Virus record (IMG/VR): IMGVR_UViG_3300031758_000049
Coordinates: 1-64,000 of that record
Strand: one strand, 5' to 3'
From: a virus
Length of the DNA stretch: 64,000 nucleotides
The notes beneath the pieces are model-generated. The model saw nothing but the letters and a program-made list of their open reading frames with translations, searched no databases and was not told the DNA's origin. This document shows, in pieces, positions 3,201 through 19,501 of the stretch (the first letter of the stretch is position 1; every line of letters begins with the position of its first letter). The position numbers and the translations under genes are program-made.

Positions 3201-6200
3201 GAAGCAGCATCTGGAGTAAAATTAGTACCATTTATTTGTCCACTTTCATCTCTATTACCAGATGTTAAATCAGTAATATCACTCATGATCTGAGCAATAG
3301 TAACTTTTTTTCTTTCTGCATCAGGTAACTTAGCTAAGATCTCAGCAACAGCAGCAGTCCAAATTTTTATTTGCTCATAAAATTCTGGTTTAACAACTAC
3401 ACGAGTATTTTTTCTTATCCACTCGCTACGTCTTAATTTAAATTCATCAGAACCTGGAACAAGCTTTTCAATATCTATAAGTTCTTGTTCAAATTGAGCT
3501 AATGTATTTTCAAATAATCCACGAATTAATTTAGATTCTCTAAAAGATTTACCTGTAGCTGGATCAATATCTGCAGCACGATATTCTTTTAATCTTTTTG
3601 CAATTAATAAAGCTTCACCTGTTTTACGATTACCATTAAGATCAATCTCAGAAAATAATTGATTATAATCTTGCCATAATAAATCTAATTTTTCAGCAAT
3701 TTTAATTTCTTCAAGTTGATTTATAGCTAAACGATTTAATTTAGTAATCTCATCCATTACTTTTTCTATCTCATAAGCTGCAGCTCTACCTAAAGGATCT
3801 TCTAATAATCTTTCACGTAAATAAACTTTTTGATCATACTCTTGATAAAAATAATCTCGCATTAATTTTTTTCTAGAAGCAATAGCATCAGAAAGTTTTT
3901 TCTTATTTTCATCAGTACCATTTTCTATATAATCTCTTTGAGCATTATCTATATCTCTACGCTTTCTATCTAATTCAATTTTCCAATTTTTATGTAAACT
4001 CATCAAAGTCCAAACTGGTTTTTCTTCCCATTCTTTTGTATCCGGATTTACTCTACCTATAAGTTCTGGTCTTCCTATTTTATCAATAAGACCTGTTGGA
4101 TTAGAAGGATTATAACCAGCTGCTGTTAATAGACCACTCATATCTGCAGCATAATTATTCATCTTATCCATAGCATTAGCTATAGCATCCGACATAGCAT
4201 CTTTAACAAAAGTTGCAAAACCACCTATTACAGGATCGGTATTAAAAGTATATCCTTCGAAGAAAGAGTTCCAAACATTAGCATCGCGATATGTACCCTT
4301 AAGCGCCATCTCAATTTTATATTTTGTAATCTGGGCACCATTCATCGATAACAATCTTAAACCTTCAAGCTCTTTAAGTTCTTGTGTTCCTAAAGTACCT
4401 TTTCTATTAAGATCTTCGAGTGTTGTATGTCTCTCGTGTTCTGCTTTTGTCATACCATAGTACTCTTTATAGTACATATTTTGTATTTTATCAGAAGCAA
4501 CCTTACCCGGTTTATTTAAACTTTCAAAAATTTTACTATACTTCTCAGCTAGTTTTTCTGCCATTGGTAATAACTGAGCATATAAAACATCTTTAGATCC
4601 TTCTTGATAAAATTCTCCAGTTAATGTTTTAGCTTTTCTAATTGAACCATCAAGACTAGATATTAAACTTTCTAATGCGGAATCAGATGGTATCCTTGCT
4701 CCATCTGCAGCTTCTCTTAATTGATCAACAAATTTTTTCCAATCTGAAAGAAGATAATCATAATAAAAAGCTTTTTGAAGATTATCAATATTATCCATAT
4801 CTGATCTCAAACTTTCTAAATGCTTCTCTATTGTCTTAAGCATTTTATCCATCCTTAAAAGAGAAGCCATGAAAGCTTCAACATGAGCTTTGGTATATTC
4901 GATAGCATTCTTTTTATCAAGAAGCATATCCTCCATAGGCTTAGCAAACTTTACTAAGTTACGCTTAATCTCATTAAGATCTCCTCGCTTAAATTCATCA
5001 GCTAATAGGTTAGCTATCTCAGCATAATTCCCACTTCTCATTACTGTCTCAATTTGTTTTAGAGCTGTATCATGAGCAAGAACTGTTAATGCTATCTTAT
5101 CTGATTGTTTTAGCTTCATTAAATCTGTAAGAATCTCATCACGCGATTTATTATAAGCTACAAAATCTTCTTCCGTTAAACTATCTTCTACAATCTCAAA
5201 CTTGGTACCACCCTTAAGCATTTCAGATAATTCTCTCAAAGTTGTATTTTCATTTAAGCTGGATATTTTTATTGGAGATTTAGCATCAGCTTTAGATCCA
5301 AATACTTTTCTAATAAATTGCTTTATTTGGTATAATAGATTTTTAATAAAGTTTGAGAATCCTGAACTAGGAACTAAGTTGTTTCTATTTATATCTGCAA
5401 TAGCAGTAAGAGCTTGTACTAATACTTCTTCTTTAAAATAGATACTACCTTCTTCTACATTATAATTATTTTTTACAAAATCTATAATAAGTTGTCCTTC
5501 TGGAGTAGATGCTAAAGTTTGATAAAGTTTTTCAAATAATTGTGGATTAGCTTTAGCTATACTTCTAAGGAAAGGATGAGAGAACTCGTGGAATACATCA
5601 TTTAGATTAAGGTTTGTTCCAACTAAATAAACAGTATCGCCAACGAAAAAAGCTTTTTTACTTGGATCCCACTCTTCATTTCTATCAGCAAGTAAAGCAG
5701 CAGCTTGTTCTTCTGTTATAAATTGATATTTAAATTTTTCACCATCTACTACTAATTGTTCTGATAATTGAGTAGCTAAAGCTGTTAGTGCCCCTACTGC
5801 ATTAGCATTATTAGTATCTAATGGAGTAATGGTCATCTCCTGCTCATTAATTTTAAAAAAATCTTCTACTAAAGGATTTGATACACTTTCTTTAATAATA
5901 GTTTGTGGTTCATTAACAAACTCTTTAAATCCTTCTATATCTTGTTTACCACCTAATTCATGTAAGTTCTTTGAAGTAGTTGCATATACTACACCTGATT
6001 CTCTAGCTCTACCTTTGTCTACACCTTTTAACACAGAATCTTGTGTTTCATTTTCTATAGATTTAGTATTCATTTCTCCTACATTCTTTACATTAGCTGT
6101 ATTAATCAAGAATGTATTAACTATACCTTCACCAGATTTAGCAACAAATCCCTTATCGAAGGCATATTCTTTAGCATAAGATAGTTTTTCTGTGAAAAAT

Positions 6201-7123
6201 CCTCTTGTATTAAATTGTGTTCTTCCTTTTTCACTACCTCTATATACTATGGTATTTTGAGGAAATATAGAATCAAGATATTGAGAGTAGAGTTGTAGAG
6301 CTTGTTGTTTTTGTTGTGGGGTTACTTTAGATAGTTCTTTTTCTACTAAATTTTCAGGCAACTCACTTATTCCTTCTTCTGTACTTGCTTGAGCTAAACT
6401 TAATTGTGAAAATATAAAATCTAAAAGCCTTTGTTTTTCTTTGCCTTTAAATATATTTCTTAATTCTTTGTCTGTTAGTTCATGCTCATATTTTAAATAT
6501 GATTCTATTACTTTAGGATTATAGTTTTCAGAATTTGGGTTAGCCGTAGGATTTTTACTTATAAAATCAATAACAGATTTATATACATCTATTTGTTTAT
6601 TAGATAATCCTTTTGTTGTAACAAGTTCAAATTTAATATTGTCGTCTATTTTTTGAAATTGTTTTAACTTATCTTCTGCTTCTTTTTTTATAAAATAAAT
6701 ATCAGATTGAATATCTTCATTTGTGGAATTTACAAAATAAGCATCTTTAAATTCTTCTACATACTTTTTAAGTTTTTCTACTACATCTTGAATATTTTCA
6801 GAGTTGCCTATTTTAGTTTTAAAATCTTGAATTTTTAATTTATTAATGTTTGCAATAAACCCTAAAGCTTCATATACAACATTAGCTAATTCAGGATTAG
6901 AATCAAATAGTTCTGGTACTCCTGGTTTTACTTCTTGAATAGAAGATTCAATAACTTTTTCAGAAGTAGTAGTTATACCTCTTTTAATAAGTTTTTCTAA
7001 AACTACTTTAGGATCTCTAATATTATAATCACTTTCTATGAAGTCTCTAAAAGCTTCAAATTCTCCTACGGTGGCTACAAGATCTTTCCACTCAGTTGTG
7101 TTTTTATTTGGGCAAACTAACAT
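242..7123 (-). CDS. Giant virion cargo protein with ART-like, zincin, LysM and membrane segments
   Basis: 2293 residues, the last gene of the late block. Around residues 289-400 a VYRG motif (Y294-R295-G296) followed by GFFTEK and AKEYA resembles ADP-ribosyltransferase domains of phage polyvalent proteins; the catalytic Glu is not obvious. Residues 512-516 are HEFSH, with a later EEVLVQAL segment that could supply the third zinc ligand of a gluzincin metalloprotease. Most of the middle is long charged helix. Near residue 1950 a LysM domain begins (YLVQEGDTLSSLAKKF, ending GKKIKIN). Near 2105 a hydrophobic stretch (GGIIAISILLGPLFGW) looks like a membrane helix. The upstream neighbour is the RNA polymerase polyprotein, 3 bases away. 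I infer an ejected protein that may help cross the cell envelope. Homology to crAss-like cargo proteins is likely; each domain call is by eye. Confidence 0.8.
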   Translation of the reverse strand: MLVCPNKNTTEWKDLVATVGEFEAFRDFIESDYNIRDPKVVLEKLIKRGITTTSEKVIESSIQEVKPGVPELFDSNPELANVVYEALGFIANINKLKIQDFKTKIGNSENIQDVVEKLKKYVEEFKDAYFVNSTNEDIQSDIYFIKKEAEDKLKQFQKIDDNIKFELVTTKGLSNKQIDVYKSVIDFISKNPTANPNSENYNPKVIESYLKYEHELTDKELRNIFKGKEKQRLLDFIFSQLSLAQASTEEGISELPENLVEKELSKVTPQQKQQALQLYSQYLDSIFPQNTIVYRGSEKGRTQFNTRGFFTEKLSYAKEYAFDKGFVAKSGEGIVNTFLINTANVKNVGEMNTKSIENETQDSVLKGVDKGRARESGVVYATTSKNLHELGGKQDIEGFKEFVNEPQTIIKESVSNPLVEDFFKINEQEMTITPLDTNNANAVGALTALATQLSEQLVVDGEKFKYQFITEEQAAALLADRNEEWDPSKKAFFVGDTVYLVGTNLNLNDVFHEFSHPFLRSIAKANPQLFEKLYQTLASTPEGQLIIDFVKNNYNVEEGSIYFKEEVLVQALTAIADINRNNLVPSSGFSNFIKNLLYQIKQFIRKVFGSKADAKSPIKISSLNENTTLRELSEMLKGGTKFEIVEDSLTEEDFVAYNKSRDEILTDLMKLKQSDKIALTVLAHDTALKQIETVMRSGNYAEIANLLADEFKRGDLNEIKRNLVKFAKPMEDMLLDKKNAIEYTKAHVEAFMASLLRMDKMLKTIEKHLESLRSDMDNIDNLQKAFYYDYLLSDWKKFVDQLREAADGARIPSDSALESLISSLDGSIRKAKTLTGEFYQEGSKDVLYAQLLPMAEKLAEKYSKIFESLNKPGKVASDKIQNMYYKEYYGMTKAEHERHTTLEDLNRKGTLGTQELKELEGLRLLSMNGAQITKYKIEMALKGTYRDANVWNSFFEGYTFNTDPVIGGFATFVKDAMSDAIANAMDKMNNYAADMSGLLTAAGYNPSNPTGLIDKIGRPELIGRVNPDTKEWEEKPVWTLMSLHKNWKIELDRKRRDIDNAQRDYIENGTDENKKKLSDAIASRKKLMRDYFYQEYDQKVYLRERLLEDPLGRAAAYEIEKVMDEITKLNRLAINQLEEIKIAEKLDLLWQDYNQLFSEIDLNGNRKTGEALLIAKRLKEYRAADIDPATGKSFRESKLIRGLFENTLAQFEQELIDIEKLVPGSDEFKLRRSEWIRKNTRVVVKPEFYEQIKIWTAAVAEILAKLPDAERKKVTIAQIMSDITDLTSGNRDESGQINGTNFTPDAASFIKGQQEKMIKAQEEFDGINGLTKKESKYLSYLFDIINEGGVLDADEKADMKALLEKKKDGLSFFDKQTLYALFAKLRDFKKKDATSYYTAIFNNHLSKLDTNILQPLLEGRNINSATANLVLEEYIVNNLINQNTPEGQQFKDWFLKNHIQKEVYDKDLGETKKVWERIYIWNINKPVDENYYDKHTFVNSNGESETLPGLPAYKYYKSVVKSQYRTERIIGKTVDNMRNWLPREDVPNSPYINEDYLRLQKEDPAHFAVLEKMKEHHIKNQEGLGYKSRLYLDVPRYRKNNAELLKTRSIKQLSKLAAQGNLPFLSIIMERARDFFRRAKDEYGSQYGWDDTKMLVRADMFSNDVISVPITGLYDLNIDDVSTDLNESINRYMFSAERQKKLIEISPIAKALRQTLNDPKNMLDDTTKLDKWNFLNRGMMTYIKKKGYYVRKSAVNNFIEREFEGKTTAGWSKDIPWMQNLANLVLGRASFAFFALNIPSALKNVFSAKYQSMIESSGGQYVDRMSLLRGEGWGFKTMMQVSSEIYKRGVKPLNMQIADSFDIVSDRAEQKLPESMSRNFTEDVASMTWLYNFRKWTEDEAQMQLGSSMLYKRKIMMAGKEVSYMEAWQLKDNKLALKDGIDIRYANKPTEYLVQEGDTLSSLAKKFNMPEDAIKRLYEEEDLYEGKKIKINNIYFKEMRNQINTVKVKLNGAYGQFDQPEAQRYLAYRMISFLKRYFTPMLINRWGYSSQGGQIRGRMNYGLNDLDTGFYTSSIRSVYRIARTGGEYWHYMTPEERGAWAKWVTEIGGIIAISILLGPLFGWDPEDEERFEKLRQKSGAMPLLGLTEDDPDHPFKVGGWLETQGLMLALGVKAEAQAFVPWPGMGLNQYYGTLTDASSIGFGATLKSYMEMLEFAYYDMTGSSKGTYAKDAGAYRWQQEGGSKFITTLMKTIGFTGGTVEPWRSIKNNPQMNPGGGKKKDEDENQSEKSGEK

Positions 7124-7126
7124 ATC

Positions 7127-10100
7127 TTATGAATAACAATGTGACATTAAATCTCTAACCATTTCATCACTAATAGATTTACTTTCTTTTTGTTTAGCTC
7201 CTATTACTAATTTTCCAATGGGTGTAATATCGTAATTTCTATTAACGTAGCCAAATTTCTCAAATAAAACTTGAGAAGCATATTCGTAAGTTTTTTGTCC
7301 TAATTTTTTTTCTACTATAGAACTATAAGTATTCTTACCTAAAGAATTAGATTCTTCTAATTGATAACCCATTTGTTCTTGTAAAAATCCAGATGATGGA
7401 AAAACTATTTCTTTTCCTTCTTCATTTTGAAGACGAAGTAATTCTTTTACTTGAGCATCAAAATCTATTTTAAAATTAGGATTAACATCACCATCAACAT
7501 CTTTAATAAAAGTAGTTTCTGTAAGATTATATTGATTATAAGTATTCAATCCAAAAGCATTAGATTGCCCTTGATTTCTAAATAACCTATCTGATGTTCC
7601 CTGTTTAGGTATAGATCTATCAAGACCTTTCTCATTATTATAAACAAAAATCTTATCAGGATTAGCTTCTAATAACTCGCGCATATATTTAACTTTTCTA
7701 GGATTATAGCTTTCATCAGTTTCTTTATCATCTCTTTTAAGTAGTTTATATGTATCAAGTATACTTGCTCCACTAGGTTGTTTATAAAAAATATCTTCAG
7801 TTTCTCTTAATCCAAATCTTTGATTTTTATCTTGTAAACCTCTAATTTGTTTTTCTATTTCTACTTTATCAAGATTTTTTCTAGAACTTTTTAAAAGACG
7901 ATCTAAAGTAATTTCAGTAATATAATAATCTTCAAACTTATTTTTATTTTTATTTAAGATTGAATTTTGCTGAGACCACTTATAATAATAAACATCTAAT
8001 AAAAGATCACTCATATTTTCAACATATTTTTGAGCAGGTTTTTCAATTAATCTTAGATATAAATCATAAGGCATTAATCTAGTAAAAGAAGATCTAGTTT
8101 TAGTATTAGAACCTGATTGTAATGTTCCAATAATAGGTAAACTAGTAAAGAAATCACTTATATATTTATTAGCTTCAGGATCTCCAGGAACTTTTACCAC
8201 GGTAGGATCTGCTAGATCTCTAATATTTTTATAATAAGAATTAACTTTTTCTGAATCATCTAAGTTATCTTGTAATTGTATATTAGAATAAAGTTTACCG
8301 GCAGATATTGTAGATAAAGGATTAAGAACTTGTAATACAGGATATGTTTGTAAAAGATCTTTATACTGAGATTTTATATAACCTAATTTATCTGCAGCTG
8401 TTTTATTCCCTGTAAATAATTTTGTATTATTAAATATATTATCTAAAGCTTTATCTCTTAAGAAACTTTCAAAAGCAATTTTACTTATTCTTTTTTTATA
8501 CGCATCTTCACTTTCTTCTCCTTTTGGATTTTTTTCAAAAGCATCATTAAGAGCTTCTTTGTATTCTATATTATCTTTAACATTATCTGTATTCTTATAT
8601 AGATTTCTAAGATATTCTCTCTCTACTACAAAGTGATGATATTCGCTTAAAGAACTAAAAGTTCCAACACTAACTGGTGCTAATCCTAATTCTTTATAAG
8701 TGCTATTTTCATTACCTAAATAAGAAGCATTGTTATATTGATTATCTAAACTTTTTTTATCAATAAACATTTTTCCATCTTTAAAGAAAGCTCCAATACT
8801 TAGAACACTAACTCCTTCTTTTTGTTGTTTTTTAGTAAGATTTTCTTGTTCTGTTTCTCCTTTTTCACTTATTTCAACTATGTTTCCTTTATATCCATCT
8901 AAAGTTCTTAAATCAAATTGTTTAAGTTCATTTTGAAATATATATGGTACAAGATTATTTCTCAAAGAAAGAATAGCTTTTTCCATCATATTTTCTCCAA
9001 AATTCTCTTCAACATAATTTTTAAAGTCTTGATCACCCATCTTACCACTTAACCATTTATTAAATACTTCATTAGTTCGAAGTGGTAATAATTTTTCCCA
9101 AATCTGTGTTTGAAATTCTTGTATATAGAAACTTGATATAGGAGAATCTGTAATAAGTTTATCTATCATCTTTGATGGGAATCGATCTTCTTTTGAAAGA
9201 GCATCAATCATAACCATTCTATTTTGTGCCTCATAGATACTAGCATCTTTTTTAGTGTCAAAATTCATATTCTTTTTAACATTAGTAAGAGCAGATCCCA
9301 TCTGTTCTATCTGTAAGAAATGTAAAAATATAGCTTTTTGATATTCATCATTAAACAATAATTTATTAGTATCTTCTCCATTTTTTTCAGCAGCAGAATA
9401 TTTTTGAATATTCTCTTCCATCTTTTTAGTATCAATATCATTATCACCAAAAACTCTATTTATAATTTCAGCACTAGTATTAGCGACATTAACATTACCA
9501 TAGATCGCATTTAATTTTTTTTCACGTACTTCATCATTTATAATATCATTTGCTGCAGCAATTTGAGAACCAAAATCTGCATCTTGTGAAAAGTATTTAT
9601 CAATGATCATTTTCTTTGCTGCAAAACCTGGATATTTAGTATCAACATCAGTAATAACATCTGATACACTACTTTGAGCGGTCTTCTTTAATCTTATATA
9701 TTCTCTTACCATAGGTTGAGAAACCATATAAATAGCATTCTCTATTGAGACACCCGCTTGAATCATAAACAAAAGTGTAGGAGAAAGATCCTTGTTACCT
9801 TGAATATCAAAAATCCAAGCATCTTTTGCAACGTCCACCCAACCATTCATCATTTGAGAGATAATATCTGAAACTCTATTTAAATCATTATTATCGTATA
9901 AATGCGATAAAGAAATAACATCTTGACCATTTATATTAAGAGTATTATGTTTAAACTTTAATGTTTGTCTAATTGTAGTTTTATTTTTACCATTAAATGA
10001 TTTTACAGTAGCATAAGCATTCATATAAGCTCCAATTCTATTCAATAGAATATTGAAAGTATTATCTACAGCTCCAATACCTAAAGTCTCTTTACCAATC

Positions 10101-13100
10101 TGATTATACTGTTGCTTAGAAATATTATAAAGTATTTCCAATACTCTAGTTCCTTCCATCACATTAGGATTCTCATTTAATAAAGCTTGATCTTCTTTAG
10201 ATAAAGTAGTAATATCACCAGCTGTTTTCTGCATCTGATCATAATCTTTAACTAAAGGTGCAAGTTTAGTAGCAATTGGTTGAACTGTATCAGTACTATT
10301 AGGTGTAATAAGATTAACAAAGTTTTCCGGCAATGCTAAAATATCTTTTATATTCCAAATAAGATCATTCTCTAATCCTTCTATAGAATTATCTCCAGTA
10401 GGATAAACTACACTTACTTCACTAGTTTCTTCTAGAATACGAAGTGTATTTAAATCTTCTTCGGTAAGAGTATATGCGCCACCAGATCCTTTTTCAAAAT
10501 CAAGTAGCATATTAATATTATCTCTACTAAAATCTAAAGTTGGATTTTTTTCACCAAGTTCTCTTAATAAAGCATTAGTAATTTTAGCTTTATTTATTTT
10601 GGTTTTTATATTAGGCATCATCACTGTAAGCTTATCGATATCGAAGTCAGCTCCTGATTTAGCTACAATCTCTGTTGGAGGTATAATAATATTACCTGCT
10701 TCCTCTGGTAAGAATTCGTATACTTCCATAAACTCCATAGAATTTAATCCTTGTACTGGAATACGAACACCAACCATAGTAATCATCTTACGATGATTTT
10801 CTTTATTTAACCACTCTTCATTTTTAATCATGGAATTAAGTCTTGTTCTAGATGATTCTAGATTAAGAACTTTTTTACCATTAACAATATCATAAACAGC
10901 TATAGTTTGACCATCATTATGATTAAGATTAAGTAGAGATAAAAACTTTCCTTGTAAAGCAACTTTCACTTTCATTGCTTTAGTAATTCCATCTTTTCCT
11001 TTTCTATAAGTAGGAAGATCATCTGTTCCCCACTTTTCTAACTCTTCTTCAGTAGCACCTCTTGCTGCATCCCAAGCTTCATTATTTTCATAACCAGCAG
11101 TAGATACTTGGATTAAAGCTTCACCATTAATTTTTTGTTTGATCAATCTATTTACTACAATAGAATTAAGTAACTTTTCAATCTTATCTGCAGACAAAGA
11201 AAATGAAGCATCTGTTTTAAGCTTTGTACCACCATCAACTACATCTAAGAAATCTATTTCATGATCTCCTAAATTTTGTCTTTCTAATTCAGCTTTAACA
11301 AATCTAACTAAGTTCTCTATTGTACCAACTGGTTTACCATTCACCATCTTCCAACCCATCTCTTCTAAAAGTTGATCTCTTTTAAGCTCGGTAAGTTTCT
11401 TTAATTTATTCTCATATGTTTTATAGATCTTATACTTAGGAGATGCGGCCATCTTAGCATCTTCTGTTGTAATAGCATCCCAAGCTTCAATTCTTTTTTC
11501 ACGAGATAAATTTCTTCCAAAATCAATTGGCACACCATTCTCTACTAAACCATCTTCAATAAGTTTTCTAAGCTGAGTAGAAAAAGTTACTTTCTTTTTA
11601 AACTTAGGTGCTATCTCTAACTGATTCTTTAAATAGTTTACATAAATAGGATTGATTGTAAATGGTTCCTCACTAATATTACGCTTATTATCTGCGTAAA
11701 AAAGATCAAAAGTTTGTTTGCCATTCTCTCCAAACTTTTCAGCACTTGTAATATTACTAATCTTTGATCCGGATTCAAATGTTACATAATCCACTTGCTC
11801 TCGAACCATCTTATCGTGGAGCTTTTGAATTCTTTTATCTTTAATTACAGTAGGAATAAGTGGTACTAAAGAAAACTTGTGCATAGCTGTAAGCTGTACA
11901 TCAGAATTAATCTTTTGTCCTATTGCAGCTTTACCAGATAATCTGTTACCAAGAGGTCCCCAGTATTGTAACTTTTGTGGAGGAAAAAAGAAAGCTATAT
12001 CAGCACTAGAAACTTGTTCACCTTTTACTATTTTTTGATATAAATTTTCTTGTGAATCTGACCACTTACCTTCTAAGTTTAATAGCATTCTATATGAATC
12101 AAAAGTTACCCAACCTTGACCATCTCCTTCTTTCATATCAGTATATGCTGTAATTAATCCACCCTTAATTGGTTTTTCTAGAGTACCAACTTTATTATTT
12201 TTTTCATCGTAACCAAAAACTTTTTTCTCAGCTTCTCGTTGATTTCCACCATTTCTTTTTAATTGTTCAGCAATTAAGTCTTTAGAATAATCTTCTATAT
12301 AAACAGATCTTTGAACACTATCTTGTACAATTGCTGTATTAAGAGTTCCATCATAATATCTATTAGTTTGTCCTATTGATTTAGCATATGTATCACCACC
12401 ATTAAGAATATTATTTACATAATCCATTGCAGCTTTATCAGTTCTATAAAGTGTACCAGTAGAACTTGAACCAGCATTTCTCTTATGAAATTCTTCCTTA
12501 GCCATATTATATTGAGCAAGGTTTCCATAAACTAATTTGATACTTTCAGTATTATGTATCCAAGAATTAATTACAAAAGATCTTAAAGCTACTTTATTAA
12601 AATCAGTATTTCTAAGTATATCTTTTCCTGTTTGTGAAAGACCTAATCCTTCAGTATAATTAGCTGTAACATGATCTTTTATTTTTTTAATAATATCACC
12701 ACTTATAAGTTTAACACCACTTCTTCTAACAGGAAACTTTTTACTTACAGCTTCAATTTGATTATTAAAATAATTTTGAATATCTTTTCCAATTTCAACT
12801 TTTAATTCAAAACCTTCTGGAGTATTTAAGTATTCTGTTAAACTATTTTTATCTAGTTGCTTAAGTATTTTTACTTTAGTTTCTGGAGATAAAACACCTT
12901 GAAATGTTACAAAAGAAGATCCTTTTTCTATATAATTAAAATCAGTATTACCAATTGCTTTAAACATATCCTTCTTTTTTTCCGGATCAGTTTCTTTTCT
13001 AGCATCTTCTACTGCTTGTTTAATATTTCTAAACTTTTTTATTCGCTTAAATTCTGAATTTAAAGTTGGAAAAATATATTTATTAATAGCATTCTTTGTT

Positions 13101-16100
13101 CCTAAACTTGTAACAAAATCTGCAGTATCAACATATAAATATTTATTTCTATTATTAATATTCTTTTTATCTAAAGAAGTAGTAAAGAAACTAAAAGATG
13201 TTCCTTTATCTGAGTGACGCATTAACTCAAAATTTCCATTCATCAAACCAGTATGAAAATCTGCTACTAGTTTTGTTAAAGGATCTGAATTAAATAAAGA
13301 AGTAGATTTCTTTTCATCATAAACATCATCTTTATTAAATGCTACTCCACTAAGATTTTTTAATTGTACTTCTACATATCCAGATTTAGTTTTTTCATCT
13401 TTTATTCTTTCACCATATTTTGTACTATTTTTATTAAGATCAAATAAAGAATTTAATAAAATAGAAGACTCAGCATCTGGATTTTTATCTACATCTAAAT
13501 TACTCATCCATGGAAGACTAATTAAAACTTTATATGCAGGTATAATAACTTTGCCGTTAGCATCTTTTACATCTTGTACTTGATTAAGTGTATTCTTTAA
13601 AACAGTAAGAAAATTATTTAATGTTAAATCAAATTGAGTATTACCTTCTGCATTTGTAACTTGATTAGTTCCCCATTTATCAGAATACTCAGCTTGAATT
13701 TCAGCTAAGTTATCAAATCTTGTTCCTTCTCCTGATGTTTTATAACCTATATCTACTAAAAATTTTTTTTCAGTTCCTACTTTACGTCTATTACCTTGAG
13801 AATCTATTTCAAATTTATCTTTCCAAACATATTGTTTATCTTCACCTATTTCATATATTTCTTTAAATAATTGAGATGGAGCATATATAGTATATTTAGG
13901 TTTTCCTATAAGAGGTTCTTCTTTATATTTAGCATTAGATAAAGCTTTAATAATATTATAAATTCTTTTAGCTGTATCTAAAGAATTTTTAGAAGAAACT
14001 TCTTTAAGAATATCTTCATTATTTGTATCAAAATCTATACCTATTGCTTTAAAAAACTCAAATTCTTTTCCTTTTATATTATCTTTAAAATCTTCTAAAA
14101 TCTTATCTAATAAAAGATAATTTTGTCCAAGAGAATCTTTACCGATATAATCACCTTTATCTTTCATTCTAAAAGCATAATCCCAATTTTTTTTAATTGT
14201 ATTTATACTAGTGGTAGCTTTAGTAGGTCTAGCTGTAAATTCCCAATTATCAAAATTTAATTCTTTAACCTCACCTTTACTCTCTGTTTTAGTTGTTATA
14301 TTAACTTTAGTATATACTAAACCAACTCTAGATAAATTAAAAGTTTGCCAAAAATTAGTCCATAATCTAAACTCTGCTGATCCCGCAGTTTTTATTGGAC
14401 CAAGTTTATTTAATAATTGTTTAAATGGAAGATTAGGTTTTGACTTTGCAAGATCACTTAAGATCGCGTACATGTTCTCAGCATCTTGATTATTTTCTAA
14501 TTTCTTAGATAGAATATTCCAAGTAACATCAAAATCTTGAAGCTTAGGTACACCTATCTTAAGCTTAACACCTTGTTTAGTTTCTATTTCAACTTCAGTT
14601 CCTTCTACATATATAGTATTACCTTTAGCATCTACCTCATGTAAACTATTCATCATAATAAGGATATCTTCTGATGCTAATTCTTTAGATGATTTTTCAT
14701 TACCACCTACACTTCCTAAACCATCTCTTCCAATTAAAAATAAATCTTCTTCATTAAGCGCATCTTCACTAAAGAAAAGTTCTTTTTCTTGTTTAGTAAA
14801 TAATCTACTTTTAGCAGTATGAAACGCAATAACATTTTGAAATCTACCCTCCTTATCTATCTTATTATTTTTAAGATTATTTATATCTCCAAAGTTATTA
14901 TAAGTCCAACTTAAAGTATCAATTATTTTTTTTCTATTAGCACGAATAATTTCACTACTTTCATTTTGTTGTAATAATACAAGTCCATCATGAATAGCTT
15001 TAATCATTTCTTGAGCATAACCATAAGCTAACTTTCTACCTTCTGCTGTTTTTAATAATGTTGCGGTATATTTATATGAAAGTTCTGCTGTAGATTCTAC
15101 AAAAGTTTCTCCTCTAGCTTCAGCTTGAAGTCTAGCATTAGCAATATATTTTTTTCTTTTTCCTTCAGAAACTCTATCAACATATTGAGATAAAAAAGAA
15201 TCAACCATATTTAAGATATAGTTTTTAGTATCTATATCGTCAACAGGTTTATCAGTATTTCTTGTAGCTAAAATCTCTCCTTTACTAAGCTTATCATATT
15301 GAGCATTGCTTTGAGAGAAAGTATACTCACTAAGATTACCTACACGAAGTTTTTCATATAAGTCATGAATAGTGCTTAAGCTTTCTGTACCATTAGCTAT
15401 TTGTTCTCTTGTAAGATTTCCAAATAACCATTCTAATATATCAGCAATAAACTTAAAAATTTTATTTCTAACAGGAGCTTTACCAGCAATCTTCTTACCT
15501 CCAGATAACATATAATTTCTAAAATCTTCAGCTAAATATTCTTCTAGTTGTTTTGGTTTAGCATCTTTAAATAAAGTATAGTTTCCTTTATAATCTGTAA
15601 AACCACCAGATTTTTTTCCTACTTCTTTATAAAGATTTTCTTTCTGTTCTTTAGTTAAAAACATCTGAGTAAACCCGTGCCATGCTTCGTGATACAAATC
15701 AGAGTAATCAGCACCTTGATATAGTGTAATACCATCTAATGTCCAATTAGCAATTGATGTTGGATTTTTAGTATTAACAGCATTGAATAAAACATAGAGC
15801 GGAATTTTACTAGACATAGGATGGTTTTCCCACCACTTTTTAGCTGCTTCTATTTGTTCTACTGTAGCTTTTTGATCAATAAGTTTTAAAGCTTTAAGTT
15901 TATCAAAATTATTAATTGCATCATCAATAATATTAAGAGCTTGATCAATAGAATTAGTATTTTGTTGATCAGGTGTAGTAGGTAAAGTAATATCAGCTTT
16001 AGTATCTACAGAAACACTAGTAGATGGTTGTGTAGATAAATAAGCATCATTGAGAGCTTGAATAAACCAGTTTTGTCCACCTGTTTCCCAAACAGTATTT

Positions 16101-19100
16101 TGTTTAGTTGGTTGATGTGTAGAAGATAATATCCAAGCTGAACCTCCTTGTTTAGTTATTTCTAAAACTAATCTGGGATGTTGTTCTAATTTAGCTTTTA
16201 TCAAATCTACCATTAGTTTATAATTATTACTATTTTCTTTAGTAGGTTTTGTTTTAGCTTCAGAATTATCTTTTAATTTTTGATAAGCTTGTTCAACATC
16301 TTTAAAGTTTGAATCTCTTACTTCTCCATTTTTATCTAACCATTGAAAATATATAGGATAAGATTGTTTAATATTACCTTTTGATTTAGCTAACTCTGTA
16401 GGATTAGTGAGTGCCGCTGCTAAACCTTTAGCATTAGAAGATATTTCTACACCTTTATTAACACTAGTAGATGGTTGAGTAGTTTTGGTAGGAGATACCC
16501 ATCTAGAATAACCATTAAGTTTTTCTTCAGTATAACCCTTTTTTTGTAAATAATCTGCAACTAATTGATCTGACAAATTACCTTTTGCATATTGATTACC
16601 AATTCTAAAAGATGCACCTGCTTCTATAGCCTTATCTAATAAAGGTTTATATTTTTCACTAAGTGTTTTTCTAATAGCTTGTGCTTCAACAGTTTTATCA
16701 ACACCTCCTCTACCAAAGTTACCACTTCCTGATACCATTATAGTATCACCAGCTGTATACACTCCTGTATTAGCTTTAGTACCCCAAGCTTTAGCATATT
16801 TATCTGTAGAAGATACATTACCTTCTTTCATTATTGTACCAAATCCAATAAACTGAGTAGATTCAGATGCCATCTGAATATCTTTAGCAGCATTACCAAA
16901 CATATCAGAAGGTTTAATTCCTGCTTCTACTAATGGATTAACACTAGTAGATGGTTGAGTAGTAATTAATTTATCAAAGTTTTTATGAAACACAATATTA
17001 TTTGGTATAGGTCCAGCAGCACTAAACATATCTGCCATTTCTTGACCTGTATAACCATTAAGATTGCTTTTAGAGTAATCAGGTATTAAAAATTCTTTAT
17101 TTGTATTTTCTTTAGCAACTGAATATAGCTCTTTTATGTTTTCAATTATTTGTTCTTTTGAAACACTCTTTTCTCCTGCTTTTTTATATGTTATACCTGT
17201 GCTAGGTTCAACAAATCCAGCTTTAAGATTCTTAGTTACAAGTGCATAAGATTGACCTTGCATCCCTCTTCCTTGTCCATACTTTGCACCAAATAAATCT
17301 TTAGCATCTTTAGCAGCACCAGCACCATGTCTTCCTTCAGGATTACTTCCAAATACAAATATTTGATTAAGTGTCAACTTAGTTACTTTCCCAGAGTATG
17401 TTTTTCTAGTAGCAGGTTTAACACTAGTAGATGGTTGAGCTGATGTAGATTCAGCTGGCTTATATATTTTATTTAATTCACCCTCAGCATACTCATAAGT
17501 ATAAAAAGCATTAAGAGATGGAATCTCTCCACTCTCATTTAACTCAAAAGGTATTGTAAAATTTTTCTTTATATAGTTATTATATGAAGCATTACGATCA
17601 ATTGTAAATATTGTATTGTTTCCTTCTTTAGAAAGAGTTAAACCAGGATAAGTAGCATTTTGATATTTAGCATTAATATGATGTATAGGATAACCTATTC
17701 TATAATACTTTTTATTTTCTGTATTATAAAAAACATATCCTTTTTTAAATTGATCTCTAACTTTATCAATAGTTCCTTCAATTATATTTTTCATGTCAAC
17801 ATCATTAAGATCTTTTTCTAAGATCTCAGCTTGAGGAGCAAGCGTAGTAAAATATTCTCGAACTAATTTTTCAGCACTTTTTCTTTTTTCAAGAAGAGCA
17901 GCTTCTTCAACTGAAGTATAATTTTTATTTTTTAATCTATAAATTTCTTGTCCTCCTATTTTAACAGTATACCCACCATCTTCATTAACAAACATATCTA
18001 AACCTTCAGTTCTAGTAAATATATAATTTTGTAATAATTCTTTTCTAGTTTCAGCAGTAATAGCTTTTGAAACTCCTTTATCTTTACTTATACCTTTATC
18101 AAATAATATAGAAACAATTGTATCTGTTAATCCTTCAACTTGACTAATATCAGGACGAGTTATTTCAACATCATAAGAACCTGTAGCATCAGTGTTAGTA
18201 TAAGTGTATCCAGAATTTTCGCTATCACTTTTTACAGCATAAATAGTAAAATCTCTATTACCTATTGTTAAATTCTCAAGAGGTGTTTTGACACTCATAT
18301 CTTTTTTTACAGCTCCCATTGAACCACCATTTATAACAGTCTTAACTATTAAATTTGGATTAGCTTTAAGAGCTTGTCTAATATCATATATAATTTGAAG
18401 TTGATCAAGTATTGTTTTTTCAGCTTGAGCTTTAGCATTTTTTTCACTAAGCCCTGGATTAAGCTTCATTAATTTTTGTTTTAAAAGATCTACTCTTTTT
18501 ACATCATCTAAAGCATTTAGATTAGCACTTTTGTATAAAGAAACTTTACCATCTTTTACTTGAGTTGAATAAATATTTCTAAATTTATGATAAGATAATT
18601 TACCATTTTCATCAAATTGACCTTCTTCATTAAACTTAACTGGAATACCATCTACATCAGTTAAAACAAACACTGGTTCACCAGCATCGTAAATAAACTT
18701 TTTATCATTGCTACCTCCTATTGTAGGATCTTCTTTAAAATCATCTCTACTTAATTTACTAGAACTCATTACTGTTAAGTATACACCTTTCTTTCCATTA
18801 TAAGGAATAGTAATTTGAGAACTATCAAAATTAGTTCCTGGTCTTTGTAATAATTTTAAAACACCTCTTTTAACTTTATAATAAAATCTATATAAAGGAT
18901 TCGCTTTATAATAATCTGGAGATTTAGGATTATCTATATTTATAGTTTCTCTATCTTGATCCGCTTGAACAGTATCTTTACCTTGATATTCTTCAGTAGC
19001 AGTTACCATATTATTATTTGTGGTATCAGCTGGTTCATCTTCTTCGTTAACTTTAATATCGCTACCTTCAAATAATGTCATCTGTATACCCGCTGTACTG

Positions 19101-19501
19101 TTATCTCTAGATTCAGCAGCTGCAGCATTAAGTTCTTTAAGTTCTTCAACAGGATTATTTTTCAAACCTAACATTTCTTCTAATGAAGAAAAATCAGGTT
19201 CTGATTTACTAATATTATTTACAAGTTTTATAAATTTATTAAAATCTATATCTTTAATAGTATCATAAACTGAAGGTTCTAATGCTTGAATACGATTTAA
19301 AAATATAGTTCCTATTGCAACATGATTAATAGCATTAGCATGTTTATCTTCAGGAGTACCAGTAGTATTATCATATACTTTTCTATAGATATCTTTAGTA
19401 AAAGATTCTAATGTAAAACCTTCTGGAGCTAGAGATAACTTTTTAAAGATATATTTTCGGAAAGGTTTATAAGATTCATTATTAGCTAAATTACAAATCA
19501 T
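7127..19501 (-). CDS. Virion RNA polymerase polyprotein with zincin and ADP-ribose-type cassettes
   Basis: 4124 residues, the largest gene. Residues 2952-2956 are DFDID in the context SGADFDIDKL, preceded by VGVRIPVQG. This is the DxDxD metal-binding motif of the double-psi-barrel RNA polymerase of crAss-like phages, which is packed in the virion and ejected to transcribe early genes. Residues 1271-1275 are HEAWH followed by EEYLAEDFR, a zincin metalloprotease signature that might process the polyprotein or act on the host. Between residues 695 and 1158 sit three extra domains separated by TQPSTSV linkers: a macro-like domain with FVFGSNPEGRHGAGAA, a phage domain of unknown role with ANTGVYTAGDTIMVSGSG, and a NADAR-like domain with DVEQAYQKLK, EQHPRL and GGQNWFIQAL. 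The N-terminal 690 residues and the region after 3000 are unassigned. Polymerase identity is firm; cassette roles are inferred. Confidence 0.9.
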   Translation of the reverse strand: MICNLANNESYKPFRKYIFKKLSLAPEGFTLESFTKDIYRKVYDNTTGTPEDKHANAINHVAIGTIFLNRIQALEPSVYDTIKDIDFNKFIKLVNNISKSEPDFSSLEEMLGLKNNPVEELKELNAAAAESRDNSTAGIQMTLFEGSDIKVNEEDEPADTTNNNMVTATEEYQGKDTVQADQDRETINIDNPKSPDYYKANPLYRFYYKVKRGVLKLLQRPGTNFDSSQITIPYNGKKGVYLTVMSSSKLSRDDFKEDPTIGGSNDKKFIYDAGEPVFVLTDVDGIPVKFNEEGQFDENGKLSYHKFRNIYSTQVKDGKVSLYKSANLNALDDVKRVDLLKQKLMKLNPGLSEKNAKAQAEKTILDQLQIIYDIRQALKANPNLIVKTVINGGSMGAVKKDMSVKTPLENLTIGNRDFTIYAVKSDSENSGYTYTNTDATGSYDVEITRPDISQVEGLTDTIVSILFDKGISKDKGVSKAITAETRKELLQNYIFTRTEGLDMFVNEDGGYTVKIGGQEIYRLKNKNYTSVEEAALLEKRKSAEKLVREYFTTLAPQAEILEKDLNDVDMKNIIEGTIDKVRDQFKKGYVFYNTENKKYYRIGYPIHHINAKYQNATYPGLTLSKEGNNTIFTIDRNASYNNYIKKNFTIPFELNESGEIPSLNAFYTYEYAEGELNKIYKPAESTSAQPSTSVKPATRKTYSGKVTKLTLNQIFVFGSNPEGRHGAGAAKDAKDLFGAKYGQGRGMQGQSYALVTKNLKAGFVEPSTGITYKKAGEKSVSKEQIIENIKELYSVAKENTNKEFLIPDYSKSNLNGYTGQEMADMFSAAGPIPNNIVFHKNFDKLITTQPSTSVNPLVEAGIKPSDMFGNAAKDIQMASESTQFIGFGTIMKEGNVSSTDKYAKAWGTKANTGVYTAGDTIMVSGSGNFGRGGVDKTVEAQAIRKTLSEKYKPLLDKAIEAGASFRIGNQYAKGNLSDQLVADYLQKKGYTEEKLNGYSRWVSPTKTTQPSTSVNKGVEISSNAKGLAAALTNPTELAKSKGNIKQSYPIYFQWLDKNGEVRDSNFKDVEQAYQKLKDNSEAKTKPTKENSNNYKLMVDLIKAKLEQHPRLVLEITKQGGSAWILSSTHQPTKQNTVWETGGQNWFIQALNDAYLSTQPSTSVSVDTKADITLPTTPDQQNTNSIDQALNIIDDAINNFDKLKALKLIDQKATVEQIEAAKKWWENHPMSSKIPLYVLFNAVNTKNPTSIANWTLDGITLYQGADYSDLYHEAWHGFTQMFLTKEQKENLYKEVGKKSGGFTDYKGNYTLFKDAKPKQLEEYLAEDFRNYMLSGGKKIAGKAPVRNKIFKFIADILEWLFGNLTREQIANGTESLSTIHDLYEKLRVGNLSEYTFSQSNAQYDKLSKGEILATRNTDKPVDDIDTKNYILNMVDSFLSQYVDRVSEGKRKKYIANARLQAEARGETFVESTAELSYKYTATLLKTAEGRKLAYGYAQEMIKAIHDGLVLLQQNESSEIIRANRKKIIDTLSWTYNNFGDINNLKNNKIDKEGRFQNVIAFHTAKSRLFTKQEKELFFSEDALNEEDLFLIGRDGLGSVGGNEKSSKELASEDILIMMNSLHEVDAKGNTIYVEGTEVEIETKQGVKLKIGVPKLQDFDVTWNILSKKLENNQDAENMYAILSDLAKSKPNLPFKQLLNKLGPIKTAGSAEFRLWTNFWQTFNLSRVGLVYTKVNITTKTESKGEVKELNFDNWEFTARPTKATTSINTIKKNWDYAFRMKDKGDYIGKDSLGQNYLLLDKILEDFKDNIKGKEFEFFKAIGIDFDTNNEDILKEVSSKNSLDTAKRIYNIIKALSNAKYKEEPLIGKPKYTIYAPSQLFKEIYEIGEDKQYVWKDKFEIDSQGNRRKVGTEKKFLVDIGYKTSGEGTRFDNLAEIQAEYSDKWGTNQVTNAEGNTQFDLTLNNFLTVLKNTLNQVQDVKDANGKVIIPAYKVLISLPWMSNLDVDKNPDAESSILLNSLFDLNKNSTKYGERIKDEKTKSGYVEVQLKNLSGVAFNKDDVYDEKKSTSLFNSDPLTKLVADFHTGLMNGNFELMRHSDKGTSFSFFTTSLDKKNINNRNKYLYVDTADFVTSLGTKNAINKYIFPTLNSEFKRIKKFRNIKQAVEDARKETDPEKKKDMFKAIGNTDFNYIEKGSSFVTFQGVLSPETKVKILKQLDKNSLTEYLNTPEGFELKVEIGKDIQNYFNNQIEAVSKKFPVRRSGVKLISGDIIKKIKDHVTANYTEGLGLSQTGKDILRNTDFNKVALRSFVINSWIHNTESIKLVYGNLAQYNMAKEEFHKRNAGSSSTGTLYRTDKAAMDYVNNILNGGDTYAKSIGQTNRYYDGTLNTAIVQDSVQRSVYIEDYSKDLIAEQLKRNGGNQREAEKKVFGYDEKNNKVGTLEKPIKGGLITAYTDMKEGDGQGWVTFDSYRMLLNLEGKWSDSQENLYQKIVKGEQVSSADIAFFFPPQKLQYWGPLGNRLSGKAAIGQKINSDVQLTAMHKFSLVPLIPTVIKDKRIQKLHDKMVREQVDYVTFESGSKISNITSAEKFGENGKQTFDLFYADNKRNISEEPFTINPIYVNYLKNQLEIAPKFKKKVTFSTQLRKLIEDGLVENGVPIDFGRNLSREKRIEAWDAITTEDAKMAASPKYKIYKTYENKLKKLTELKRDQLLEEMGWKMVNGKPVGTIENLVRFVKAELERQNLGDHEIDFLDVVDGGTKLKTDASFSLSADKIEKLLNSIVVNRLIKQKINGEALIQVSTAGYENNEAWDAARGATEEELEKWGTDDLPTYRKGKDGITKAMKVKVALQGKFLSLLNLNHNDGQTIAVYDIVNGKKVLNLESSRTRLNSMIKNEEWLNKENHRKMITMVGVRIPVQGLNSMEFMEVYEFLPEEAGNIIIPPTEIVAKSGADFDIDKLTVMMPNIKTKINKAKITNALLRELGEKNPTLDFSRDNINMLLDFEKGSGGAYTLTEEDLNTLRILEETSEVSVVYPTGDNSIEGLENDLIWNIKDILALPENFVNLITPNSTDTVQPIATKLAPLVKDYDQMQKTAGDITTLSKEDQALLNENPNVMEGTRVLEILYNISKQQYNQIGKETLGIGAVDNTFNILLNRIGAYMNAYATVKSFNGKNKTTIRQTLKFKHNTLNINGQDVISLSHLYDNNDLNRVSDIISQMMNGWVDVAKDAWIFDIQGNKDLSPTLLFMIQAGVSIENAIYMVSQPMVREYIRLKKTAQSSVSDVITDVDTKYPGFAAKKMIIDKYFSQDADFGSQIAAANDIINDEVREKKLNAIYGNVNVANTSAEIINRVFGDNDIDTKKMEENIQKYSAAEKNGEDTNKLLFNDEYQKAIFLHFLQIEQMGSALTNVKKNMNFDTKKDASIYEAQNRMVMIDALSKEDRFPSKMIDKLITDSPISSFYIQEFQTQIWEKLLPLRTNEVFNKWLSGKMGDQDFKNYVEENFGENMMEKAILSLRNNLVPYIFQNELKQFDLRTLDGYKGNIVEISEKGETEQENLTKKQQKEGVSVLSIGAFFKDGKMFIDKKSLDNQYNNASYLGNENSTYKELGLAPVSVGTFSSLSEYHHFVVEREYLRNLYKNTDNVKDNIEYKEALNDAFEKNPKGEESEDAYKKRISKIAFESFLRDKALDNIFNNTKLFTGNKTAADKLGYIKSQYKDLLQTYPVLQVLNPLSTISAGKLYSNIQLQDNLDDSEKVNSYYKNIRDLADPTVVKVPGDPEANKYISDFFTSLPIIGTLQSGSNTKTRSSFTRLMPYDLYLRLIEKPAQKYVENMSDLLLDVYYYKWSQQNSILNKNKNKFEDYYITEITLDRLLKSSRKNLDKVEIEKQIRGLQDKNQRFGLRETEDIFYKQPSGASILDTYKLLKRDDKETDESYNPRKVKYMRELLEANPDKIFVYNNEKGLDRSIPKQGTSDRLFRNQGQSNAFGLNTYNQYNLTETTFIKDVDGDVNPNFKIDFDAQVKELLRLQNEEGKEIVFPSSGFLQEQMGYQLEESNSLGKNTYSSIVEKKLGQKTYEYASQVLFEKFGYVNRNYDITPIGKLVIGAKQKESKSISDEMVRDLMSHCYS
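16014..16033 (-). repeat. Linker repeat copy 4 (encodes TQPSTSV)
   Basis: In-frame copy of the repeat ACACTAGTAGATGGTTG (plus-strand reading), encoding TQPSTSV at about residues 1157-1164 of the polymerase polyprotein. It closes the NADAR-like cassette and precedes the zincin region. It lies 447 bp from copy 3 and diverges after the core (TGTAG instead of AGTAG). Confidence 0.9.
16461..16482 (-). repeat. Linker repeat copy 3 (encodes TQPSTSV)
   Basis: A 22-base copy identical to copy 2, in frame, at about residues 1007-1014 of the polymerase polyprotein. It separates the unassigned middle cassette from the NADAR-like cassette. It is exactly 480 bp from copy 2. Confidence 0.95.
16941..16962 (-). 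repeat. Linker repeat copy 2 (encodes TQPSTSV)
   Basis: A 22-base copy identical to copy 3, in frame, at about residues 847-854. It separates the macro-like cassette from the middle cassette. It is exactly 480 bp from copy 1. Different codons could encode the same peptide, so the DNA identity exceeds what protein constraint requires. Confidence 0.95.
17421..17440 (-). repeat. Linker repeat copy 1 (encodes AQPSTSV)
   Basis: First copy of the linker, at about residues 688-694 of the polymerase polyprotein (AQPSTSVKP). It marks the entry into the cassette region. It shares the 18-base core ACACTAGTAGATGGTTGA with the next two copies. Confidence 0.95.

Follow-up and report, generated by a model that had tools for sequence, protein, structure and literature searches.

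In-frame domain cassettes bounded by a DNA-conserved linker in the catalytic RNA polymerase subunit of a crAss-like phage

What are three compact domains, separated by repeats of one short linker, doing inside a giant phage RNA polymerase (RNAP)? This question is raised by a 64,000-nucleotide (nt) stretch of viral DNA (IMG/VR record IMGVR_UViG_3300031758_000049, positions 1 to 64,000; the window), in which a 4124-amino-acid (aa) open reading frame (ORF), open along its entire length, carries such an array. A first-pass annotation had described the array as three ADP-ribose-type cassettes with TQPSTSV linkers in a virion RNAP, possibly ejected with the DNA as counter-defense activities. All of the motifs that it quoted were found in the protein. 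Residues 689 to 1163 hold four QPSTSV copies, at 689, 849, 1009, and 1158, which bound three segments of about 145 to 155 aa (in relatives, as long as about 320 aa). The three-domain layout was therefore as described, with the corrections that there are four linkers and that only the last three are TQPSTSV, the first being AQPSTSV. The modular layout of the polymerase is real, and its elements are as follows.

7127 to 19501, minus strand: catalytic RNAP subunit of crAss-like type (4124 aa, by RNAP homology), the host polypeptide of the cassettes
17420 to 17437, minus strand: linker copy 1, conserved DNA core, read QPSTSV
16955 to 17404, minus strand: cassette D1, residues about 700 to 849, macrodomain of the A1S_2505 phage family with a predicted TARG1/DarG-like fold
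17231 to 17233, minus strand: codon of Lys757 (D1 Lys58), aligned with TARG1 Lys84
16940 to 16957, minus strand: linker copy 2
16484 to 16939, minus strand: cassette D2, residues 855 to 1006, Rossmann-like alpha/beta domain (AlphaFold2 [AF2] model)
16460 to 16477, minus strand: linker copy 3
16031 to 16459, minus strand: cassette D3, residues 1015 to 1157, probable divergent NADAR-like domain (hhalign)
16013 to 16030, minus strand: linker copy 4
10634 to 10648, minus strand: DFDID catalytic (DxDxD) motif, residues 2952 to 2956, within SGADFDIDK

The window was assigned to a crAss-like phage by its muzzle protein (Pfam PF25731) and by PHROGs families of portal and major head proteins. Polymerase residues 2501 to 3500 matched 89 phage records, and the 40 matches listed included crAss-like, Bacteroides, and Flavobacterium phages. 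Among the matches were the "putative RNAP catalytic subunit" of crAss002 and the "Catalytic RNA polymerase subunit" g066 of Cellulophaga phage phi14:2, the latter 45.8% identical across the motif region, which is 6% of the query. We also compared 87 cassette-bearing IMG/VR ORFs with the seven giant proteins of the window after masking the cassettes. The polymerase was the best match for 54 of them, the next gene for 9, and another gene for 1, with none for 23 (E 1e-5); this count takes in a sister record and treats near-identical contigs separately. The sister record, of 107 kb, holds an identical cassette array and may or may not be a separate sample; apart from it, the masked polymerase was 21 to 45% identical to those ORFs. 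Among 52 linker-bearing ORFs compared, 25 matched the polymerase best, the others being cut pieces or other giant ORFs. By homology and catalytic motif, the 4124-aa ORF is a Crassvirales-type catalytic RNAP subunit, and the polymerase label of the first-pass annotation was borne out.

We defined the linker as a 23-nt block, CTACTCAAYCATCTACTAGTGTT, usually read (T/S/P/A)TQ(P/S)STSV and containing an 18-nt core. The sequence CAACCATCTACTAGTGTT is the same in all four window copies, which are spaced 480, 480, and 447 nt apart. Four window matches to the core were found at up to three mismatches, compared to 0.06 expected, and none of 100 shuffles reached four; given the peptide and the codon usage of the ORF, the probability of codon identity throughout all four copies is 3.4e-6. 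When 2.9 million viral contigs were scanned with CAAYCATCTACTAGTGTT, 62 stretches were retrieved, 17 of them with at least two copies. In every one of the 62, the 18-mer fell within an open frame 201 codons or longer, where it was read Q(P/S)STSV. Because an exact scan selects on DNA, a synonym-tolerant scan was also made, with CAA and both serine codon classes kept constant; of its 101 stretches, 80 were analyzed. RNAP-related or cassette-related ORFs gave 63 canonical matches versus 4 synonymous variants (63/67 with identical codons), compared to a canonical share of 4.4% predicted from codon usage for the QPSTSV form; other ORFs gave 2 canonical versus 26 variant matches. In 76 nonredundant linkers from 53 loci, conservation extended from -5 to +17 and fell to background beyond about +20. 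Wobble T bases outside the search pattern were kept in 74/76 linkers at -1 and 71/76 at -4, and the first codon base at -6 was variable (A in 37, C in 18, T in 14, and G in 7). In 107 related cassette-side pairs, these two linker wobble bases agreed in 166 of 172 cases and fourfold sites of the cassettes in 1320 of 2111. No exact match to a 21-nt form of the linker was found across 84,980 bacterial and archaeal species genomes. These results demonstrate that the linker is conserved at the DNA level, beyond its peptide, a property that the first-pass reading of TQPSTSV as plain domain linkers omits, along with the exchange breakpoints described below. The 23-nt block also contains the palindrome ACTAGT.

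The similarity of sequences on either side of the linker was then compared between loci (numbered here with an L), using 79 linkers from 57 loci, 60 aa per side, and a score threshold of 60, the highest of 3000 shuffles being 57. Of 3046 inter-locus linker pairs, 2869 showed no similarity on either side; similarity was confined to a single side in 170 and extended to both in 7. When the DNA of D2 was aligned with that of L023, identity was 79 to 98% between the linkers, 25 to 42% before the first, and 33 to 58% after the second, the 58% block being the one that holds the second linker. The D2 protein was 88 to 89% identical to the copies in L023, L024, and L025, and the masked RNAPs of L023, L024, and L026 (whose D2 is the L025 version) were 28 to 35% identical, with 46 to 57% in the best 150-column stretch. 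Similarly, D3 was 83 to 85% identical to its counterparts in L029 and L030, where the RNAP was 24 to 26% identical (over 423 columns only for L030). Position in the polymerase also differed: the window cassettes lie N-terminal to the catalytic motif, and in 30 of the 31 other linker-bearing ORFs having DxDxD the linkers lie past it, L062 being the one with linkers before it. D2 also occurs as an N-terminal-side cassette domain, without an exact linker, in L006 and L007. Taken together, these comparisons demonstrate that the linkers are mosaic breakpoints and that the cassettes have been exchanged horizontally among phages.

The cassettes themselves were examined by profile and structure comparison. 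D1 scored 98 bits against NCBIfam NF049995 (A1S_2505_Nterm; cut-off, 45) and also matched phrog_2072, neither family having a stated activity. D1 and D2 were modeled separately, since a combined MAFFT alignment merged both domains. The AF2 model of D1, built on 59 sequences, had a predicted local distance difference test score (pLDDT) of 96.6, and its top Foldseek matches were macrodomains, those of Venezuelan equine encephalitis virus (E 7.8e-4) and TARG1 (E 8.3e-4). VIA comparison gave Z 11.6 with TARG1 (2l8r; root mean square deviation [rmsd], 2.7; 124 aligned) and Z 10.1 with DarG (5m3e; rmsd, 3.0; 124 aligned). Designed serine hydrolases ranked below the macrodomains (Z 9.4 to 10.5) and were rejected as the fold, and a D1 profile run against PDB sequences returned only helical repeats and chance rows. 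On its model, D1 is a macrodomain, as the first-pass annotation had proposed. D1 Lys58 (polyprotein Lys757) aligns with TARG1 Lys84 and is Lys in 54/59 family members (MAFFT).

For D3, which that annotation had called NADAR, comparison with six canonical NADAR cassettes by hhalign gave a probability of 82 (E 1e-5), and those six cassettes themselves match YbiA (7.9e-13) and 8bau. The best PDB match of a 33-sequence D3 profile was to the NADAR protein YbiA, at an E value of 0.057 that is not significant alone, and the alignment keeps the E..YQ..K and M...K..QH..L motifs in register. Within the first motif, Glu55 is invariant in 33/33 D3 sequences and aligns to a Glu invariant in 6/6 canonical cassettes; His114 and Glu124 are also invariant and are candidates for the last-strand E/D/H residue of NADAR. 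D3 is thus probably a divergent NADAR relative. A D3-like domain of L152, searched against phages, matched one record (E 3e-3). LisH, DUF2773, slp, and ispG were rejected as cassette families, their library matches lying under the cut-offs. The AF2 model of D2 (22 sequences; pLDDT, 89.0; predicted template modeling score, 0.86) had a Rossmann-like order of elements. A SAM (S-adenosylmethionine) methyltransferase assignment was rejected, since the best VIA rows (Z at most 5.4) were taken as the common Rossmann arrangement only. Nor was D2 assigned to SLOG (hhalign probability 10 and E 0.003 to one SLOG-like cassette family, probability 0.2 to another), and SLOG proteins were absent among the 50 best structural matches listed in each of two D2 PDB comparisons. 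Of the three window cassettes, one, probably two, belong to ADP-ribose-handling families, so the first-pass label of ADP-ribose-type cassettes applies to D1 and probably, in divergent form, to D3; the AF2 model of D2 gave no significant Foldseek or VIA match that would tie it to ADP-ribose.

We propose, at a probability of about 0.72, that the virion RNAP of this crAss-like phage is a carrier of small effector domains, held as in-frame cassettes and exchanged by recombination at the linker DNA. The repeated linker would supply short homology for recombination in mixed infections, and related phages would in this way swap, add, and lose cassettes with the reading frame and the spacer kept whatever the cassette. 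Because they are part of the RNAP, the cassettes would be packaged, would leave the virion together with the genome, and would act ahead of any phage gene expression, the payload probably being used at once after ejection. In crAss001, the RNAP-associated gp47, gp49, and gp50 are virion cargo and are thought to be ejected partly unfolded (PMC10172136; statements on papers cited by such numbers refer to the parts of their text consulted), and by analogy with the crAss001 and phi14:2 literature the window RNAP would also leave the virion with the DNA. As presumed enzymes with a counter-defense role, the cassettes would most likely strip ADP-ribose from nucleic acid or destroy defense signals derived from nicotinamide adenine dinucleotide (NAD) or ADP-ribose. 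Opposition to DarT may be one option only.

Several points weigh against this proposal. Many relatives have the same cassette domains without the exact linker, so fusion does not depend on the linker. The linker loci were picked by exact match, and the synonym-tolerant scan lessens this selection bias but does not abolish it: that scan allows several matches per contig and fixes the Gln and serine codon classes, and its "related" label for ORFs was derived in part from segments of loci with canonical linkers. Recent pairs say little, since fourfold agreement is already 0.89 for cassettes of about 90% identity. Tyrosine recombinase (PF00589) and RecT (PF03837) were not found in the 107-kb sister record, one record and possibly a fragment, and no search was made for serine recombinases; HNH_3 was present in 1/3 records and ERF in 0/3, the sister record having neither. 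As for the domains, no library hidden Markov model (Pfam, PHROGs, or NCBIfam) matches D3 significantly; as a NADAR relative, it would be a divergent one. D2 had no significant structural match (Foldseek best E 0.28 in the PDB and 0.017 in BFVD; VIA best Z 5.4). In D1, the alignment places Asn116 at the position of the TARG1 catalytic Asp125 (Asn in 54/59 members, Ser in 3, and Ala in 2). In TARG1, Asp125 resolves the lysyl intermediate. Thus, of these TARG1 residues, the Lys84 equivalent is kept and the Asp125 equivalent is replaced, and because of this replacement we class D1 as a macrodomain and not as TARG1. In DarG, Lys80, the counterpart of TARG1 Lys84, is required, and the mechanism is termed unclear (PMC9967889). 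Catalysis by D1 may be possible despite the Asn. Separately, the spacers of L029, L031, L046, and other same-domain relatives are often of a loose TQPT type and are possibly decayed linkers.

Given an ADP-ribose-handling payload, the substrate could instead be soluble: the cassettes may act on NAD- or ADP-ribose-derived immune signals (Thoeris-like or other) and not on ADP-ribosylated DNA, an alternative that we rate at a little short of even odds. Phage macro, NADAR, and SLOG domains have been argued to act more often on soluble ADP-ribose signals (Iyer et al. 2022, PMC9503650), SLOG-family cassettes co-occur with those studied here (cpYpsA in 5/63 linker regions), and a phage NADAR able to strip ADP-ribose off DNA in vitro failed to rescue cells from DarT1 (PMC11125620). 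Conversely, the folds closest to D1 include those of TARG1 and DarG, both of which take ADP-ribose off DNA, and tested NADARs, one of them phage-borne, clear ADP-ribose from guanosine in DNA in vitro (PMC11125620).

The DNA conservation of the linker also raises a bolder version of the proposed exchange, which we put forward tentatively and with less confidence than the soluble-signal alternative. The 23-nt linker may be a site dedicated to recombination or to endonuclease attack and may maintain its own invariance, the RNAP serving as an integron-like platform for a shared pool of ejectable cassettes. Integron gene cassettes are exchanged by way of brief common DNA sequences where modules meet, and phage boundary sequences work in a like manner. 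The array resembles these in having a conserved short DNA site at module borders that coincides with the breakpoints; unlike integrons, it is composed of in-frame domains within a single protein, and a search for tyrosine recombinases, made in one record, found none. If this version is true, a custom anti-defense payload would be reshuffled at one DNA site and would act ahead of the first phage transcript.

The domains could also be structural or regulatory parts of the polymerase and not injected counter-defense enzymes, which we consider unlikely. They are covalently part of the RNAP, and D1 lacks one TARG1 catalytic residue, as this explanation would have it. Opposed to it are the swapping of the domains, which in relatives may lie before or after the catalytic motif, and their recurrence outside the polymerase: 30/62 nonredundant D1 family members (drawn from the best 80 of 557 relatives) are closed ORFs of less than 260 aa, and D1 therefore exists as a standalone protein too. 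The company that the cassettes keep also argues against it. We scanned 63 of the 64 linker regions (L068 was left out), each taking in up to 260 aa before the first linker and up to 320 aa after the last. Pfam matches were to 2OG-Fe(II) oxygenase (14 regions), DUF7831 (13), cpYpsA SLOG (5), PIF1 (3), ART-PolyVal (2), and NADAR, AAA_33, and Zeta_toxin (1 each), plus others, and NCBIfam matches were to AlkB (10) and A1S_2505 (4). Overall, neighboring cassettes come from AlkB, SLOG, NADAR, helicase, and ART families and from families without a name. PADLOC gave scattered matches over the same regions, with 1 to 4 members per model (the models named PsyrA and ShosA had 2 and 1). In two loci (L090, 2713 to 3312; L043, 2597 to 3145), KEGV..LGSKQDIEGF cassette ends flank a P-loop kinase-like core that replaces the usual middle, as though cores, too, were exchanged within conserved ends. 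A 4403-aa ORF of L055 carries NADAR-like and macro cassettes far apart, one on each side of the catalytic motif.

A further alternative, that the linker is conserved as a peptide only, serving as a flexible spacer or as a site cut by a phage peptidase, with no role for the DNA, has some basis in two motifs, one in the polymerase and one in the next gene.

15677 to 15691, minus strand: HEAWH (HExxH) motif just past the cassettes, possible zincin-like peptidase domain
5909 to 6934, minus strand: cassette-related N-terminal region (residues about 64 to 405) of the downstream 2293-aa ORF, ART-like by motif alone

The downstream gene (242 to 7123) has a cassette-related start (VYRG.., ..LGGKQDIEGFKEF) followed by HEFSH (window 5576 to 6934), so the order cassette then HExxH is common to both genes. 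Zincin-like peptidases are frequent in polyvalent proteins and have been proposed to process them (PMC5512222). No Pfam peptidase match was found in a Pfam scan of the window proteins, despite the HEAWH and HEFSH motifs. The linker DNA itself speaks against a peptide-only role: its wobble bases are conserved about like its first and second codon positions, the residue two before the Gln is variable, 63/67 related matches are canonical compared to the 4.4% expected, and the breakpoints coincide with the linker. We therefore regard a peptide-only role as improbable, more so than a structural role for the domains; an additional peptide role would be compatible with the exchange that we propose. 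The cassette-related region of the downstream ORF is 65.5% identical over 177 aa to L161, with weaker matches to the cassettes of other phages, and a Pfam search of it gave no ART match. A LysM domain lies at residues 1952 to 1977 of this 2293-aa protein (25.5 bits; Pfam cut-off, 20.9).

An origin of the arrays as chimeras of assembly or as repeats arisen by chance is very improbable, even with a linker-bearing set that consists of metagenomic contigs only: an identical array stands in the sister record, itself possibly not a separate sample; the 62 contig stretches are spread over many metagenome numbers; and a cultured crAss-like isolate, Kolpuevirus "frurule" (OQ198718, L244; host, Bacteroides cellulosilyticus), has the D1 macrodomain family within an annotated putative RNA polymerase (about 9001 to 9603), there without the linker. 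In another gut crAss-like phage (cr50_1, MT774375, L245; 5401 to 8271), a giant protein has a macrodomain and then, by motif, a superfamily 1 (SF1)/RecD-like helicase.

The array is related to several known systems. Polyvalent proteins (Iyer et al. 2017, PMC5512222) are likewise giant, combine several unrelated conflict domains, and are deployed early; the set includes the N4 virion RNAP fused to other domains, and zincin-like peptidases are common in it. Polyvalent proteins have at least two conflict-type domains, and a macrodomain and a probable NADAR-like domain were found here on one RNAP polypeptide. Unlike them, the array has a Crassvirales-type RNAP as its carrier, a macro and NADAR-type set, and near-invariant DNA joints for swapping; the words "linker" and "shuffl" do not occur in the text of PMC5512222 that was consulted. 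Phage macro/NADAR/SLOG/DUF4326 systems (PMC9503650) draw on the same families, with SLOG-macro and SLOG-NADAR fusions, and virion packaging was proposed for them; their proteins are described there as typically standalone outside RNA-virus polyproteins, and "crAss" does not occur in the main text consulted. The crAss-like virion RNAPs (phi14:2 g066 and crAss001 gp47/49/50; PMC10172136 and PMC7886860) share the DxDxD protein and a cargo thought to be ejected; exchangeable effector cassettes are undescribed for them in the consulted parts of these two papers, and "NADAR" and "macro" are absent from that of PMC7886860. D1 is like the TARG1/DarG macrodomains in fold and in the position of the catalytic Lys and unlike TARG1 in having Asn for Asp125. 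No description of cassettes joined by linker DNA in a phage RNAP was found in the literature searched (open-license papers). The novelty lies chiefly in a linker that is conserved at the DNA level and marks the points of exchange, and also in the use of a crAss-like RNAP to carry macro and NADAR-like domains.

The macrodomain in the annotated RNA polymerase of the cultured Kolpuevirus "frurule" makes part of this idea testable. The linker also serves as a search key, its 18-nt pattern having retrieved 62 viral stretches, and the cassettes found by it therefore offer a route to new counter-defense enzymes and, via their substrates, to further defenses. If the proposal is true, it would explain how crAss-like phages are armed at infection time zero, with a payload updated by swaps of domains rather than of genes.

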